A stretch of DNA of 48,423 bases. It comes from a virus. This document shows, piece by piece, positions 17,578 to 26,694 of this stretch (position 1 is the first letter of the stretch; each line of letters opens with the position of its first letter). Both the position numbers and the translations under genes were made by a program. The stretch is from the IMG/VR virus record IMGVR_UViG_3300048927_000791, positions 1 to 48,423 of that record. One strand, written 5' to 3'. Below the pieces are notes generated by a model. The model did not search any database. It saw only the letters and a list, made by a program, of their open reading frames with translations, and had not been told where the DNA came from.

Positions 17578-17960
17578 CTGCAGGGCGCCCCACGAAGTAC
17601 GACCCCGCCTATTGCGAGCAGGTCGTCGAGCACATGGCTCAGGGTGCGAGCCTGACCTCGTTCGCCGCGCAGATCAGTGTTGCCCGCTCCACGATCAACC
17701 AGTGGATGGACGATAATCCGGAATTTTCGGAAGCCGTACATGTGGCAAAGGCAAAATGTGCAGCCTGGTGGGAGCTATGCGGGCGCAACATCGCCATGGG
17801 CAACGGCGGTCCTGGTGCCTCGACGCTGGCTGTATTCGGCATGAAGAACATGGCCCCCGACGACTGGCGCGATAAGACCGAGACGGCGATCACCAACCCG
17901 GATGGCAGCCTGCGCCCGACCTTGGTTCGCATCGAGGCGGCACCTTGTCCGAAGCCGTAA
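17574..17960 (+). CDS. terS: Terminase small subunit
   Basis: 128 aa. GRPTKYDPAYCEQVVEHMAQ at the N-terminus followed by an HTH (SLTSFAAQISVARSTINQWM) is the standard opening of small terminase subunits, which recognise the packaging site and recruit the large subunit. A helical oligomerisation segment follows (AVHVAKAKCAAWWELCGRN). GTG start overlaps the previous gene; its 3' end overlaps terL by 16 bp. Confidence 0.88.
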   Translation: MTAGRPTKYDPAYCEQVVEHMAQGASLTSFAAQISVARSTINQWMDDNPEFSEAVHVAKAKCAAWWELCGRNIAMGNGGPGASTLAVFGMKNMAPDDWRDKTETAITNPDGSLRPTLVRIEAAPCPKP

Positions 17961-19165
17961 TCCAGCTACCGCCGAAGCTGGTGCCGGTATTCGCACCGGC
18001 AAGGGGTGCGGTACAGTATCGCAATGCGCATGGCGGGCGTGGATCGGGCAAGTCGTTCAACTTCGCCAAGATGGCGGCAGTGTGGGGGTATGCCGAACCG
18101 CTGCGAATACTTTGCACGCGCGAGTTCCAGGCAAGCATCTCCGAGAGCTTCCACGCAGAATTGAAGGCGGCTATTGCGTCGGAACCGTGGCTAGAAGCCC
18201 ATTACGACGTGGGCGTCGACTACCTCAAGGGCGCGAACGGGACGCAGTTCATCTTCCGCGGTCTTCGGCGCAACACGCAGTCGGTCAAGTCTCTCGCCAA
18301 GATCGATCTAACGATTGTCGAGGAAGCCGAGGATGTGCCGGAAACGTCGTGGCTGGCGCTTGAGGCCACCGTGTTCCGCCAGCCGAAGTCCGAGCTGTGG
18401 GCGATCTGGAACCCGCGCCAGAAGGGCAGCCCGGTTGACAAGCGGTTCCGGGTGACGCCGCCGGCAAACGCGATCACTGCGGAAATCAACTGGTCTGATA
18501 ACCCGTTCTTCCCGCCCGGCCTGGACACGCTGCGACGGCGCGAGCAGGAACGGCTTGACGATGCCACATATCAGCACATCTGGGACGGCGGCTATCTCGT
18601 CAACTCCGCTGCGCAGGTGCTGGCGGGCAAATGGCGCGTTGCTGAGTTCGAGCCCGGCGACGATTGGGATGGGCCGTATCAGGGCGGCGACTTCGGTTAT
18701 GCGCAAGACCCCACTGCGGCGGTGCGGTGCTACATCCACGGGGACACGCTGTACGTCAGCCACGAAGCCGGTGGGCGCGGTATCGAGCTAGACCACATCG
18801 CCGGGCGCGCGATTGAGGCTATCCCCGGTTACGAGCGCTACGTCAGCCGGTGGGATAGCGCTTCCCCTGGATCGATTAGCATCCTCACGCGGTCGGGCCT
18901 TACCCGCGCTCAAGGCGCTCCGAAGTGGCAGGGCAGCGTTGACGACGGCATCCGCTACCTGCGATCATTCCGAGAGATCGTCATCCACCCGCGGTGCCGT
19001 GAGACGATCAACGAGGCCCGTCTGTACAGCTACAAGGTTGACCGGTTGACCGGCGACATCCTACCCGTGCTGGTCGACGCCAACAATCACTACATTGATG
19101 CCCTGCGCTACGCGGTGTCGCCGATGATCAAGGGCAAGTCCTACAGCCTCTCCGCCCTAACTTGA
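17945..19165 (+). CDS. terL: Terminase large subunit (PBSX/Terminase_3 family)
   Basis: 406 aa, the packaging motor. Walker A GGRGSGKS at 30-37; Walker B LTIVEE with E126/E127; ATPase coupling segment IWNPRQKGS near 175. The RNase H-like nuclease domain shows GGDFGYAQD, a WDSASPGS segment and a C-terminal DANNHYIDALRY, which hold the metal-binding acids. TTG start at 17945 inside terS. The TGA stop codon (19163-19165) is part of the first copy of the late element, so the portal transcription unit may begin exactly at this gene's end. Confidence 0.96.
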   Translation: MSEAVIQLPPKLVPVFAPARGAVQYRNAHGGRGSGKSFNFAKMAAVWGYAEPLRILCTREFQASISESFHAELKAAIASEPWLEAHYDVGVDYLKGANGTQFIFRGLRRNTQSVKSLAKIDLTIVEEAEDVPETSWLALEATVFRQPKSELWAIWNPRQKGSPVDKRFRVTPPANAITAEINWSDNPFFPPGLDTLRRREQERLDDATYQHIWDGGYLVNSAAQVLAGKWRVAEFEPGDDWDGPYQGGDFGYAQDPTAAVRCYIHGDTLYVSHEAGGRGIELDHIAGRAIEAIPGYERYVSRWDSASPGSISILTRSGLTRAQGAPKWQGSVDDGIRYLRSFREIVIHPRCRETINEARLYSYKVDRLTGDILPVLVDANNHYIDALRYAVSPMIKGKSYSLSALT

Positions 19166-19207: not shown

Positions 19208-21082
19208 ATGTGGATCGCCGACAGCCTCCGCGCCGCCATCGGCAGTGTTCGCACCGCATGGGGCCGTGATAGCAGCCCCATGGCGCAGGCGTTCGGGTCG
19301 CAGTTCGCGGTTGCCAAGTACCTTGAATCCGGTTTGCTCAAAAAGGTTATCGCCATCCCGGCGGCCGATCGCACGTCGAAATGGCGCGACTGGCAGGCAC
19401 CCCCGGAAGTCATCACCGCGATTGAGGGCGAGGAAAAGCGCCTCGGTCTGCGCGCCAAGACCAAGCAAGCGGAGATCCTGCGCGACATCGGCGGCGGCGC
19501 CATGGTGCTGATCACGGCGGGCGACCATGCGCAGCCGCTGACCACTGTGCCCAAGGGCGGTATCGTCGCGATCAACGTTCTGTCGCGCTGGCAGATCAGC
19601 GGGCTTGACTGGGATACCGACCTGGCCAGCCCGACGTACGGCGAGCCGATGATGTGGCAGGTGTCCGGCGGGCGCACGACGCAGCCCATCCACCCGTCGC
19701 GGGTGATCCCGTTCCGTGGGGAGCCATTGGCGGGCATCATGGGTGTGTCGACGGAGGATGCCTATTGGGGCGACTGCCGGCTGATGCGCGTTCTGCGGGC
19801 GGTCGAGATCAGCGATGAGACGCAGGTTTGGTTCTCCGCTCTGGTGCGCAAGGCGAAGTTGCTCAGGATTGGCATCCCGGGGCTGTCCGAGGCCCTTGTC
19901 AGCGACGAAGGCAAGAGGCGCGTCGCAGATCGGATGCAGACCATTGCCGAGGGGGAGAACATCCTCAATGCGGTGGTTTACGAGGCATCCGCGGGTCAGG
20001 ACCGGCCGGGTGAGGTCATCACCGACTACCAGGTTTCGTGGGCTGGCATCCCGGCGGTTATGGATGCGTTCGACCAGCGGGTTGCGGCGGTCTCGGGCAT
20101 CCCCTTTACGACCCTTTTCGGCCGCTCGCCCGCCGGGATGAATGCGACAGGTTCGCACGACGAAGCGAACCGGTGGGCGCAAACCTCTGAGGCGCAGGAA
20201 AACAGCCTTCGCCCGTGCCTGGAGCAGCTTGACCCGTTCTTGATCGCTTCAGCTGGCGTTCCGGCTGGGGGTGTGACGTGGAAGTTCGCCCCGCTGTCGA
20301 CACCGACCGACAAGGAAAACGCGGACACCTTCAAGACCACCATGGAGGGCCTCACCGCGCTCCGGGCCATGGAGATCATGCCCGAGGAAGCATTCAACCG
20401 CGCGGCCCAAAACATGCTGATCGAAAATGAGACTTTACCGGGCCTTGAGCAGGCCCTCAAAGGCTATTCCGATGACGAGCGTTACGGCGTTGCGCCTTCC
20501 GATGATGGCAGCGACCCGAGCGCGTTGAGCGAGATCCCCAACGGGGGAAAGGAGGTCGATCCAACATCTGCCGGCGGCGGGGGTAGTGGAAGTGCACCCG
20601 CCCGCCGTGCCGCGAATGATGCCAAGCCGATCCCGCTCTACGTCCAGCGCAAGCTATTGAACGCGTCCGAGCTGATCGCGTGGGCCAAGTCGCAGGGCTT
20701 CTCGGCCACCCTGCCCGCCGACGATATGCACGTCACCGTCCTATACAGCCGAACGCCGGTTGACCCGATCAAGATGGGCAACGGATGGGATGGAAACGAC
20801 AAGGGCGAGATCACCATCAAGCCCGGCGGCCCGCGTGCGGTCGAAAAGCTGGGCGAGGATGCGGTTGTTCTTCTGTTCGCGTCGTCGGACCTCGTGTGGC
20901 GTCACCAGTCGATGGTTGAGGCCGGCGCCTCCCACGATTACCCCGAATACCAGCCACACGTAACGCTCAGCTACGAGGCTGGCGACGTCGACCTCGCGAC
21001 GGTCAAGCCGTTCGCCGGTAAGCTGGTGTTCGGGCCTGAGATTTTCGAGCCGCTGCCGCTGCGGAAGGTGACCGAGGAATGA
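19208..21082 (+). CDS. Portal protein (DUF1073) fused to an Acb1-like anti-CBASS 2H phosphoesterase
   Basis: 624 aa. Residues about 1-450 are a DUF1073-type portal protein, the dodecameric ring through which DNA is packaged; SGIPFTTLFGRSPAGMNATG is typical of the family. A low-complexity linker with GGGGSGS (456-462) leads to a 150-residue domain with two HxT motifs, H508-V-T510 in MHVTVLYS and H584-V-T586 in PHVTLSY. That paired motif and the length match Acb1 of phage T4, which cleaves cyclic di- and trinucleotide signals of CBASS immunity. Fusion to a virion protein could deliver the enzyme with infection, though that is inference. The name Acb1 is attached to some DUF1073 proteins in databases as I recall, so the fusion itself may be known. 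Confidence 0.9.
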   Translation: MWIADSLRAAIGSVRTAWGRDSSPMAQAFGSQFAVAKYLESGLLKKVIAIPAADRTSKWRDWQAPPEVITAIEGEEKRLGLRAKTKQAEILRDIGGGAMVLITAGDHAQPLTTVPKGGIVAINVLSRWQISGLDWDTDLASPTYGEPMMWQVSGGRTTQPIHPSRVIPFRGEPLAGIMGVSTEDAYWGDCRLMRVLRAVEISDETQVWFSALVRKAKLLRIGIPGLSEALVSDEGKRRVADRMQTIAEGENILNAVVYEASAGQDRPGEVITDYQVSWAGIPAVMDAFDQRVAAVSGIPFTTLFGRSPAGMNATGSHDEANRWAQTSEAQENSLRPCLEQLDPFLIASAGVPAGGVTWKFAPLSTPTDKENADTFKTTMEGLTALRAMEIMPEEAFNRAAQNMLIENETLPGLEQALKGYSDDERYGVAPSDDGSDPSALSEIPNGGKEVDPTSAGGGGSGSAPARRAANDAKPIPLYVQRKLLNASELIAWAKSQGFSATLPADDMHVTVLYSRTPVDPIKMGNGWDGNDKGEITIKPGGPRAVEKLGEDAVVLLFASSDLVWRHQSMVEAGASHDYPEYQPHVTLSYEAGDVDLATVKPFAGKLVFGPEIFEPLPLRKVTEE

Positions 21083-21378: not shown

Positions 21379-21586
21379 TACATTCGCTCTCATCATCGGC
21401 ATCGCGTGCGTCTGGTTGAGCGGGTATTCCCTTGGGCAAACGCGCCGACGGAGTGGCTATCAGCCCGCCCCCGGCGATCTCGGTATCCCGCCGCGCACCG
21501 GCAGTGCGGTCTATCGCGGCAATATCCCGCCTGTCCCGCCGGCCCGAGACCCGAGCGCGCCGTATCCAGCCCGCCCGTCGCGCTGA
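21374..21586 (+). CDS. Small membrane protein, 70 aa
   Basis: MSTFALIIGIACVWLSGYSL is one N-terminal membrane segment or uncleaved signal. The rest is Pro-rich and disordered (PPRTGSAVYRGNIPPVPPARD). Uses the ribosome-binding site in repeat copy B. Its stop overlaps the next ATG. No family recognised. Confidence 0.6.
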   Translation: MSTFALIIGIACVWLSGYSLGQTRRRSGYQPAPGDLGIPPRTGSAVYRGNIPPVPPARDPSAPYPARPSR

Positions 21587-22437
21587 TGCGCTACGACCTA
21601 GCCGCCATGGCATCCCGCGCCAAACCCAACCGCCGCAAGCGCGCAATCACCATCCCCGACAAAGCCCCGCCGGCAATGCTGGCGCAATCGCTGTTCGCGC
21701 GGGCCTATCGCCCGATGCTGGAGCGGTGGAACGCTGCGGTGCCGGGGATCGTGGCGGAATACGAGCGGACGCTTGCGGCCATGGTGCGGGATAGCGCCGA
21801 CGACCTGCAAGCGCGGCTTGATGCGGCTTCGTCTGAGATGGAGCGGCTGTTTATCCTGCTGGATGCGTCGATCCGGGAATGGGGTTTGCAGGCCGAGAAG
21901 TTCACCCGCGAGGCTTGGGCTGGTGCCGTGCTGACCGCTACCAAGGTCGACGTAACCATGTTCATCGGCCCCGCTGACTTCCGCGAAACCGTCTCCAGCT
22001 ACCTCAAGTGGAATTCCGAGCTGGTGCGCGATGTCTCCGCCGAGATCCGCCGCAAGATCAGCAACGCCGTGTTCGCCGGGGTGCAGAACCGCACGCCCGC
22101 GCGCGAGGTGGCGAAGGAGATCCGTGAAGCGACGGGCATGTCTCGGCGGCGGGCGCTGAACATCGCCAGCGACCAGGCCAGCAAGTTGACTTCGGCGCTT
22201 GCGGCGGAGCGTCGGCGAGAGGCGGGGCTGTCGATATACCGGTTTCGCCATAGCGGAAAAAAGCATCCGCGCGCTGATCACCTCGCCCGCAACGGGAAGT
22301 TGTACGCGGAAGCCAAAGCAGATGCCGGGCGCGAGGTTGATGGGCAGACCGTCAACGAACCGATTCCCGAAGATCAGCGAGCCGGTCGACCTCCCTTTTG
22401 TGGCTGTCGCGAGCAAGGCGTGCTCATCTTCGACTAG
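21586..22437 (+). CDS. Minor head protein (Mu gpF / SPP1 gp7-like)
   Basis: 283 aa. The C-terminal half carries the Phage_Mu_F signature: GMSRRRALNIASDQASKLTSA (about 185-205), then YRFRHSGKKHPRADHLARNGK with the His-rich stretch, and PFCGCREQGV at the end. Such proteins are minor capsid components present in few copies and injected or needed for head morphogenesis. Position after the portal is canonical. ATG 21586 is in a TGATG overlap; the longer frame is rejected. Confidence 0.88.
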   Translation: MRYDLAAMASRAKPNRRKRAITIPDKAPPAMLAQSLFARAYRPMLERWNAAVPGIVAEYERTLAAMVRDSADDLQARLDAASSEMERLFILLDASIREWGLQAEKFTREAWAGAVLTATKVDVTMFIGPADFRETVSSYLKWNSELVRDVSAEIRRKISNAVFAGVQNRTPAREVAKEIREATGMSRRRALNIASDQASKLTSALAAERRREAGLSIYRFRHSGKKHPRADHLARNGKLYAEAKADAGREVDGQTVNEPIPEDQRAGRPPFCGCREQGVLIFD

Positions 22438-24146: not shown

Positions 24147-25253
24147 ATGGTGCAACTATGCGACACCCTTGACGCAGCTACGAACGCCCGCATTTGCGCG
24201 GACGGCAGCCTCGTGGCTGAAGTGTACGCTGCCAGAACGGGCCTGCAGGACTATGCCGGCCGCGAGGTAGATCCCCAGAACGAACGCGGCCTGCGTGATA
24301 AGGCCGTCGTCAAGGTGTATCGCCCCGAAAGCGAAGTGTTCCGCGAGGCCAGCCTTGCGACATTCGCCGCTGCTCCTGTGACCATTGATCATCCATCAGT
24401 GCCCGTCGATGCCGCCAACTGGCGCGAGCTGGGCCGCGGCGAGATCAACGGGGATGTGGTGCGCGATGGTGCTCGCGTCCGAGTGCCGATCATCGTGCGT
24501 GATGCCGCAGCTGTTAAGGCAGCGACCACGACGCACAAGCAGCTCTCCATGGGCTATGCGACAAACCTCGTGTTTCCGGCGGACGGCAAGCACCCTGATG
24601 GGACCGCCTGCGACGCCTACCAGACAGACATCAAGATCAACCACATCGCGTGGGTTCGGGCCGCACGGGGCGGGCCTGAAATGCGCGTGGTCGATGAACG
24701 CTCGCCCCAGGAGAAACCCAAGATGAAGATCCGTATCGGCGATGCCGAGGTTGACGCGACCAACGGTGAAGCCGTTCGGATCGCCGTCGACGCGGCCATG
24801 AGCGCGAAGGATGCCGAAGTAGGCGCCCTCACCGCCAAGCTCGCAACAGCAACCACCGCGCTGGAAGCCAAGGACGGCGAGATCGTCGGTCTGAAGGCCA
24901 AGCTGGTGGATGCCGAGATCACGCCCGAGAAGCTGCAGGCACTGGCAGATGCCCGCGCGCAGGTGATCGGCAAGGCGAAGTCGCTGGCCCCCGCTCTGGT
25001 GGTCGACGGCAAGACCGATGCCGAGATCCGCAAGGCCGCTGTCACTGCCAAGCTCGGCGATGCTGCTACCGCGATGTCTGATGCCGCGATCGAGGGTGCG
25101 TTCGCCGCGCTGACCGTCGACGCCAAGCCCGAGCAGCCGCGGATCACGCCGATTCCGCAGCCGCAGGTAATCGGTGACGCCGCCGCGCGCGAAACCGCCG
25201 CTTTCGCCAAGGCGAACGACTTCAACGCCTGGCGCACCGCCGGTCAGGCATAA
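24147..25253 (+). CDS. Prohead protease / scaffold fusion (DUF2213)
   Basis: 368 aa. The N-terminal 185 residues match DUF2213, a prohead protease-like family: VTIDHPSVPVDAANW with a conserved His, then QLSMGYATNL with the Ser, and DIKINHIAWVRAARGGPEMRV. Residues about 215-300 are a helical, Ala/Lys/Glu-rich scaffold-like segment (KDAEVGALTAKLATATTAL). Such a protein shapes the procapsid and is then removed by self-digestion. Placed just before the cement and major capsid genes, as expected. Confidence 0.85.
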   Translation: MVQLCDTLDAATNARICADGSLVAEVYAARTGLQDYAGREVDPQNERGLRDKAVVKVYRPESEVFREASLATFAAAPVTIDHPSVPVDAANWRELGRGEINGDVVRDGARVRVPIIVRDAAAVKAATTTHKQLSMGYATNLVFPADGKHPDGTACDAYQTDIKINHIAWVRAARGGPEMRVVDERSPQEKPKMKIRIGDAEVDATNGEAVRIAVDAAMSAKDAEVGALTAKLATATTALEAKDGEIVGLKAKLVDAEITPEKLQALADARAQVIGKAKSLAPALVVDGKTDAEIRKAAVTAKLGDAATAMSDAAIEGAFAALTVDAKPEQPRITPIPQPQVIGDAAARETAAFAKANDFNAWRTAGQA

Positions 25254-25734: not shown

Positions 25735-26694
25735 ATGTACATGAATGACGCACAGCAGGCCACTTTCGGCTTCGTCTATAACCAGTCGCTCGCGATCAAC
25801 ACGCGCGTCTATGAGACCAAGTTCCCAGACTTGGACTTCTCGCGTCTGGTATTCGTCGACAGCTCCGCGCCTGAGTATTCGCCGGGTCTGGTGACCTTCA
25901 TTTCGTCCACGGTTGGTCAGGCGGATTGGTATTCCGGCGCCGCCAAGGATGTGAAGAAGGCTGATGTCACCCGAGACCGTGTGGAGACCCGTTTCCACAT
26001 GGCGTCGGTGGGCTACGGCTTCAACATCGAGGAGGCTGGGCAAGCTCAGCTGATGGGCATGAACCTGGATTCGAGCAAGGCGCTGGCTGCCCGGCGCGCG
26101 TATATCGAGTTCATGTGGAACGTCACGCTGACCGGAGACACTACTAAGGGCCTGGCTGGCCTGATCAGCCAGAGTGGCGTAACCACCGGCACTGCGCCGG
26201 CAGACGGCACGGGCTCGGTGACGACGTGGTTCGACACCGCTGGCACGCTCACCAAGACGCCTACCCAGATCCTGCGCGACTTCAACAACGTGATCCTCGG
26301 CATCTTCACCGGCACTCTGACGGTGGAAATGGCGGACACGGTGTTGCTGCCCTATTCGACCGAGGCGTTCTTGGGTGCGACGCCCATGTCATCGACGAAC
26401 AGCGAGACGGTGATTTCCTTCATCGAGCGCAACAACGTCTATACCCGCCGCACGGGCTTGCCGCTGACGATCCGCGGCGAACTCGGGCTCGATACGGCCG
26501 GCGCGTCCAGCACCAAGCGCATGGTGGCCTATTCCAACCGTGAAGACGTGGTGAAGCTGCATCTGCCGATGCCGCACCGCTTCCTGCCGGTTGCGACCGC
26601 CGACAGCGTGCATTTCGACGTTCCGGGCATCTTCCGCACCGGCGGCGTGGAAGTGCTTCGTCCTGGTGCCTTCCGCTATCTCGACGGGATCTAA
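25735..26694 (+). CDS. Major capsid protein (DUF2184, HK97-fold)
   Basis: 319 aa, usual length for the family. Recognisable stretches: YETKFPDLDFSRLVFVDSSA, GFNIEEAGQAQLMGMNLDS, AYIEFMWNVTLTGDTTKGLAGL (the last common to this capsid family) and MPHRFLPVATADSVHFDVPG near the end. Forms the icosahedral shell. AAGGGGG lies upstream of the ATG. Confidence 0.93.
   Translation: MYMNDAQQATFGFVYNQSLAINTRVYETKFPDLDFSRLVFVDSSAPEYSPGLVTFISSTVGQADWYSGAAKDVKKADVTRDRVETRFHMASVGYGFNIEEAGQAQLMGMNLDSSKALAARRAYIEFMWNVTLTGDTTKGLAGLISQSGVTTGTAPADGTGSVTTWFDTAGTLTKTPTQILRDFNNVILGIFTGTLTVEMADTVLLPYSTEAFLGATPMSSTNSETVISFIERNNVYTRRTGLPLTIRGELGLDTAGASSTKRMVAYSNREDVVKLHLPMPHRFLPVATADSVHFDVPGIFRTGGVEVLRPGAFRYLDGI

Follow-up and report, generated by a model that had tools for sequence, protein, structure and literature searches.

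The window analysed here, a stretch of 48,423 nucleotides of viral DNA, encodes a portal protein that continues past its core into a C-terminal extension. The question raised by this locus is whether that extension is an Acb1-type phosphodiesterase directed against the cyclic nucleotides of CBASS and, if so, where and when such an enzyme would act. The relevant features of the window are as follows.

17945..19165 (+): terminase large subunit (TerL), PF04466/PF17288
19208..21082 (+): portal–Acb1 fusion ORF, 624 aa, ATG start
19313..20350 (+): Phage_portal_3 (DUF1073) core, residues 36–381; Pfam PF06381 E=1.8e-87, Foldseek match to 8hds E=2.3e-23
20495..20620 (+): flexible linker, residues 430–471, with GGGGSGS at 456–462 inside; pLDDT <50 in the full-length model
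20618..20623 (+): Asp471-Ala472, where the linker meets the domain; conserved in Phage_portal_3 fusions and perhaps a hinge or a site of processing
20636..21064 (+): Acb1-family 2H phosphodiesterase domain, residues 477–619; PF23474 E=1e-42, AlphaFold2 pLDDT 94.4, Foldseek match to 7t26 E=1.5e-8
20729..20737 (+): first catalytic HxT, H508-V-T510 (T4 H44/T46), from alignment
20957..20965 (+): second catalytic HxT, H584-V-T586 (T4 H113/T115), from alignment
21056..21064 (+): lid site, PLR in place of the DLDWKS/DLDWKR of relatives, with the T4 W147 equivalent lost; from protein and DNA comparison
21406..22437 (+): MuF minor head protein, PF04233 E=6.5e-9; an Acb1 fusion partner elsewhere (L048, L050)
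24147..25253 (+): DUF2213 head protein, probable maturation protease, PF09979 E=1e-49; an Acb1 fusion partner elsewhere (L049, L052, L275)
25735..26694 (+): major capsid protein, PF09950 E=1.1e-78

Architecture of the portal ORF and fold of its C-terminal domain

The ORF is identified as a portal by its PF06381 profile, its portal fold (8hds) and its place in a head operon that runs TerL, portal–Acb1, MuF, DUF2213 and capsid. The catalytic residues H508, T510, H584 and T586 and the GGGGSGS stretch lie exactly where the original prediction had put them. The start that it gave for the extension, 20561, falls on the first position of codon 452 (P452), and its end, 21082, is the end of the ORF; the Acb1 domain proper occupies approximately residues 473–619, after the linker. 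The PF23474 profile scores 145.7 bits on the window portal against a Pfam cut-off of 27, and because this match spans the paired HxT motifs they are not a chance pattern. A phmmer search of the PDB with the window portal returned both the portal of Pam3 (1.1e-35) and the Acb1 of FBB1 (1.2e-12).

An AlphaFold2 model of the domain, built on 38 related domains, shows a confident Acb1-like 2H fold. In a Foldseek search with this model, FBB1 Acb1 (7t26) ranked first (TM 0.68/0.73), followed by a phosphodiesterase of Burkholderia phage BCSR5 and then E. coli LigT. In the full-length portal model the core and the C-terminal domain are both predicted with confidence, and the low-scoring linker connects them. 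The PDB entry that this model matches best is 8hds, the Pam3 portal, from the single solved virion neck found with the portal–Acb1 architecture. The deposited 8hds model covers 442 of 621 residues. The sequence of that chain contains an Acb1-like domain at residues 457–609 that is absent from the model, which suggests that the domain is flexible, averaged out or removed in the Pam3 virion neck; 8hds was not retrieved by the Foldseek search using the domain model alone. Sequence, fold and catalytic tetrad thus strongly support the proposed Acb1-family identity of the portal C-terminus.

The substrate-contact residues of T4 Acb1 described by Hobbs et al. (PMC9117128) were compared with the window domain and its relatives. 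Of the 193 domains aligned, 172 have HxT/HxT as their tetrad and 15 have HxT/HxS, and the position of T4 Y12 is occupied by Tyr in 189 of 192. Of the base-stacking aromatics of T4 (Y12, W74, F107 and the lid residue W147), Y12 and F107 are kept in the window domain as Y478 and Y578 respectively; conservation of T4 W74 was not seen by alignment. E614 matched T4 E141, which contacts adenine, in one alignment, and this position could not be mapped in a larger one. In almost all of the nearest relatives the sequence ends in EPL-D-L-D-W-K..., resembling the EPLKLDW of T4, whereas the window ends in EPLPLRKVTEE, a small in-frame change through which the Asp-Trp of the lid is gone. At the DNA level, a tandem CCGCTG occupies window positions 21047–21067 where a relative (L203) has GATCTCGACTGG, consistent with a local change that removed the lid Asp-Trp. 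Because this pair, which includes the equivalent of T4 W147, is lost, the window copy may be less active than those of its relatives.

Fusion partners, linker border and evolution of the domain

A total of 286 Acb1-domain loci were examined, some contigs more than once, giving 192 domains after removal of duplicates. Partners were assigned by Pfam on representatives together with local searches, and since sampling was seeded from the window the partner counts are not an unbiased census. Phage_portal_3 (PF06381) portals bear approximately 158 of the 192 domains. The other in-frame partners are Portal_Mu (PF06074; 11), HK97-type Phage_portal (PF04860; 5), XkdF protease (4), DUF2213 (3), MuF (2) and S78 prohead protease (1). 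None of the 286 loci has a second Acb1 copy, and wherever neighbouring head genes were seen, the other candidate partners lacked the domain. In two loci (L137, L275) the Phage_portal_3 portal is bare and Acb1 is carried by DUF2213; in L141 both portal and DUF2213 are bare and Acb1 is on MuF. The Mu-type portal is bare with Acb1 on XkdF in L155 and L171, with the reverse arrangement in L043, and Acb1 is on the HK97 portal beside a bare S78 protease in L228 and L247 and on S78 itself in L280. The breadth of this attachment to different head proteins is the new element of the present work.

Two apparent protease fusions, in Roseobacter phage DSS3P8 (L284:3989-4441) and Edwardsiella phage ZHS (L283:2116-2715), were set aside as free Acb1 genes misnamed 'prohead protease' in public records. 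Several ORFs had more elaborate arrangements. One of 966 aa (L041:1606-4503, +) joins portal, Acb1 and a C-terminal ADP-ribosyltransferase-like (ART) domain, a 2,465-aa ORF (L142:317-7711, +) contains Phage_portal_3, NUDIX and Acb1, and another of >1,400 aa (L044:2143-6441, +) contains NUDIX, Acb1 and ART. An embedded Acb1 domain is also present in a giant ORF (L139:644-8419, +; at least 2,592 aa), of which the 2,136-aa part scanned (L047) gave no other Pfam match, and is followed in L273:9827-10888 (+) by a Gp49/RelE-like domain in the same ORF. The Acb1-free Phage_portal_3 ORF of L141 (1-2586, +) has >600 extra residues past the core with no Pfam match. In T4, the free acb1 gene (57B) adjoins ipI, an internal head protein gene (L202:592-1411, -).

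The linker of Phage_portal_3 fusions is variable except at its end, where an Asp-Ala pair stands six residues before LYV (Asp in 149 and Ala in 143 of 152 fusions, ~95%). The pair is missing from most fusions to other partners, and in the window Asp471-Ala472 is a possible processing or hinge site, to judge by this conservation pattern. The window linker also contains a strong Shine-Dalgarno-like sequence, AAAGGAGGT, at 20548–20556, and among 153 related ORFs, 33 have AAGGAGG in their linkers. The idea that the domain is also made on its own, from an internal start, was rejected, as no in-frame start lies within 90 nt after the window motif; starts with a nearby Shine-Dalgarno-like motif occur in 36 of 170 fused loci at scattered places, which also counts against it.

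The domain has evolved differently from the portal core. Its identity to the window exceeded that of the core in all 145 comparisons (medians 60% versus 36%), and in close pairs the domain had a median dN/dS of 0.09, the core one of 0.19; judged by these ratios, the Acb1 domain is under purifying selection. A tree of 100 domains requires at least 23 partner changes, although bootstrap support was not fully settled. On this tree the label Phage_portal_3 changes 11 times (at least five forced by well-supported branches) and Portal_Mu five times (at least three forced). Pairs such as L074/L071, in which nearly identical domains (dN 0.03, dS 0.24) sit on very different cores (dN 0.72, dS 1.09), point to movement of the Acb1 module between portals by exchange. 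A related portal of 481 aa, that of RHph_N28_2, has no Acb1 domain, and the domain is therefore dispensable for portal function.

Proposed function, location and timing

The best explanation of the locus, and one that we consider probable, is that an Acb1-type domain on the portal destroys CBASS cyclic oligonucleotides. Judged from its sequence, the window domain would be expected to cleave CBASS signals, cutting cyclic di- and trinucleotides by a metal-free HxT/HxT mechanism. Portals have their C-termini on the inner side of the head, and the flexible linker would tether the domain to the lumen-side C-terminus of each subunit. Each virion would then carry 12 tethered copies, as the original prediction proposed, lining the inside of the portal vertex, a location suggested by portal biology. 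Counting against this explanation are the lost Asp-Trp of the window lid, the lack of conservation of T4 W74 and the confounded host comparison described below.

In the hosts, a SMODS cyclase domain scored over the cut-off in 15 of 50 genomes with such a prophage versus 6 of 99 comparison genomes, drawn from the orders of two hosts with centre genomes left out. Several factors confound the excess (one-sided Fisher, p=0.00015 for all genomes and p=0.014 for those of 3.5 Mb or more): genome size, bias between isolates and MAGs, the load of mobile elements, and uneven search sensitivity, one genome (G001) having been missed once and found in two other searches. The comparison is suggestive only of CBASS-type cyclases being commoner in hosts of such prophages. 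When the whole class was surveyed for Acb1, only 2 of 385 genomes, one of them the centre genome, exceeded the cut-off, which was too few for statistics. A search of the PADLOC library gave no match.

Portals are late proteins that normally stay in the capsid, so delivery of the domain into a cell would need cleavage, and no direct evidence for cleavage releasing the domain was found. Carriage in the head followed by release into the next cell has about an even chance; carriage is favoured because the portal, MuF and protease partners are all head-interior proteins. A more specific scheme, in which the inside of the head serves generally as a docking place for one Acb1 copy, whether on portal, MuF or protease, and portal copies are freed at Asp-Ala during maturation and ejected with the DNA, is put forward tentatively and is rather doubtful. 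Were it true, CBASS signals would be destroyed from the first minute of infection.

The late expression and retention of the portal would also suit a domain that is active only from late-made, unassembled portals and proheads when CBASS is triggered and is never delivered, the fusion setting dose and timing through head assembly, and we give this a chance somewhat short of even. It accords with the ties of CBASS to late head proteins, namely the interaction of the Bas13 prohead protease with a CBASS sensor (reviewed in PMC12409349) and escape from Ssc-CBASS by scaffold mutation (PMC10686824), and with the way T4 Acb1 works, unfused and produced inside the cell (PMC9117128). For such a role, however, a free gene would suffice, and repeated fusion to head-interior portal, MuF and protease argues for placement in the head.

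Two further explanations question the activity itself. That the 2H domain acts on RNA, as an RNase or in Usb1-like RNA-end processing, or on other nucleotide signals is very unlikely. An RNase was one of two options given for portal- and MuF-fused 2H domains by Iyer et al. 2017 (PMC5512222), Foldseek also matches LigT and AKAP18/Usb1-type 2H folds, and PHROG 755 is labelled RNA ligase. Acb1 is nevertheless closest by both fold and sequence, with LigT weaker; on the window portal the Pfam model for 2'-5' RNA ligase does not reach its cut-off, SMODS domains look commoner in hosts, and Iyer et al. noted that these 2H domains are not associated with RNA ligases. It is scarcely more probable that the domain of the window phage is an Acb1 relic, either retained for a part in portal assembly or inactivated recently. 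The loss of the lid DLDW would fit such a relic, but the window tetrad is intact, close relatives have intact lids and are under purifying selection, and the RHph_N28_2 portal indicates that assembly does not need the domain.

Relation to known systems

Hobbs et al. 2022 showed cleavage of 3'3'-cGAMP and cAAA by T4 Acb1 and by nine other homologues, and the Acb1 tree of that study takes in 112 prophage sequences (PMC9117128). The window domain resembles Acb1 (T4 57B; FBB1 7t26/7t27) in its 2H fold, HxT/HxT tetrad, aromatic residue at T4 Y12 and PF23474 membership, and is ~30% identical to FBB1 Acb1. It differs from T4 Acb1, a free 152-aa protein, in being a C-terminal portal domain, in lacking conservation of W74 and in the loss of lid W147. 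Among the papers searched, none reported enzymatic activity for a portal-fused Acb1 copy. Acb1 has been described as fairly rare and confined to particular groups of phages (PMC11722364), a picture widened by the fused copies in many phages and prophages of Alphaproteobacteria, Pseudomonas, Xanthomonas and cyanobacteria.

The portal–Acb1 fusion is real and has been described before, as the original prediction had suspected. Pfam recognises both domains, and Iyer et al. 2017 (PMC5512222) placed 2H domains on portal and MuF proteins and proposed destruction of nucleotide signals; Iyer et al. 2022 (PMC9503650) restated the fusion and added head packaging and injection against SMODS-type signalling. 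The window portal therefore adds one more member to an architecture already described, with the same head-packaging and injection proposal. That work is computational and, in the text available, names only portal and MuF as the 2H partners, while the loci examined here place the domain on portals of three Pfam families and on proteases of three families, always as a single copy per locus. The Pam3 portal has the same two-domain order and is related along the whole chain, differing in its second motif, HxS. The same fusion is present in the cultured phages Pseudomonas phiPSA1, Rhizobium RHEph04-06, Sinorhizobium HMSP1-Susan, Aminobacter Erebus and Synechococcus Yong-M3-232, where it is annotated only as a portal, head or hypothetical protein. 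With Pam3, phiPSA1 and RHEph04-06 are cultured phages that bear on the published idea of an anti-defence enzyme built into the virion head.
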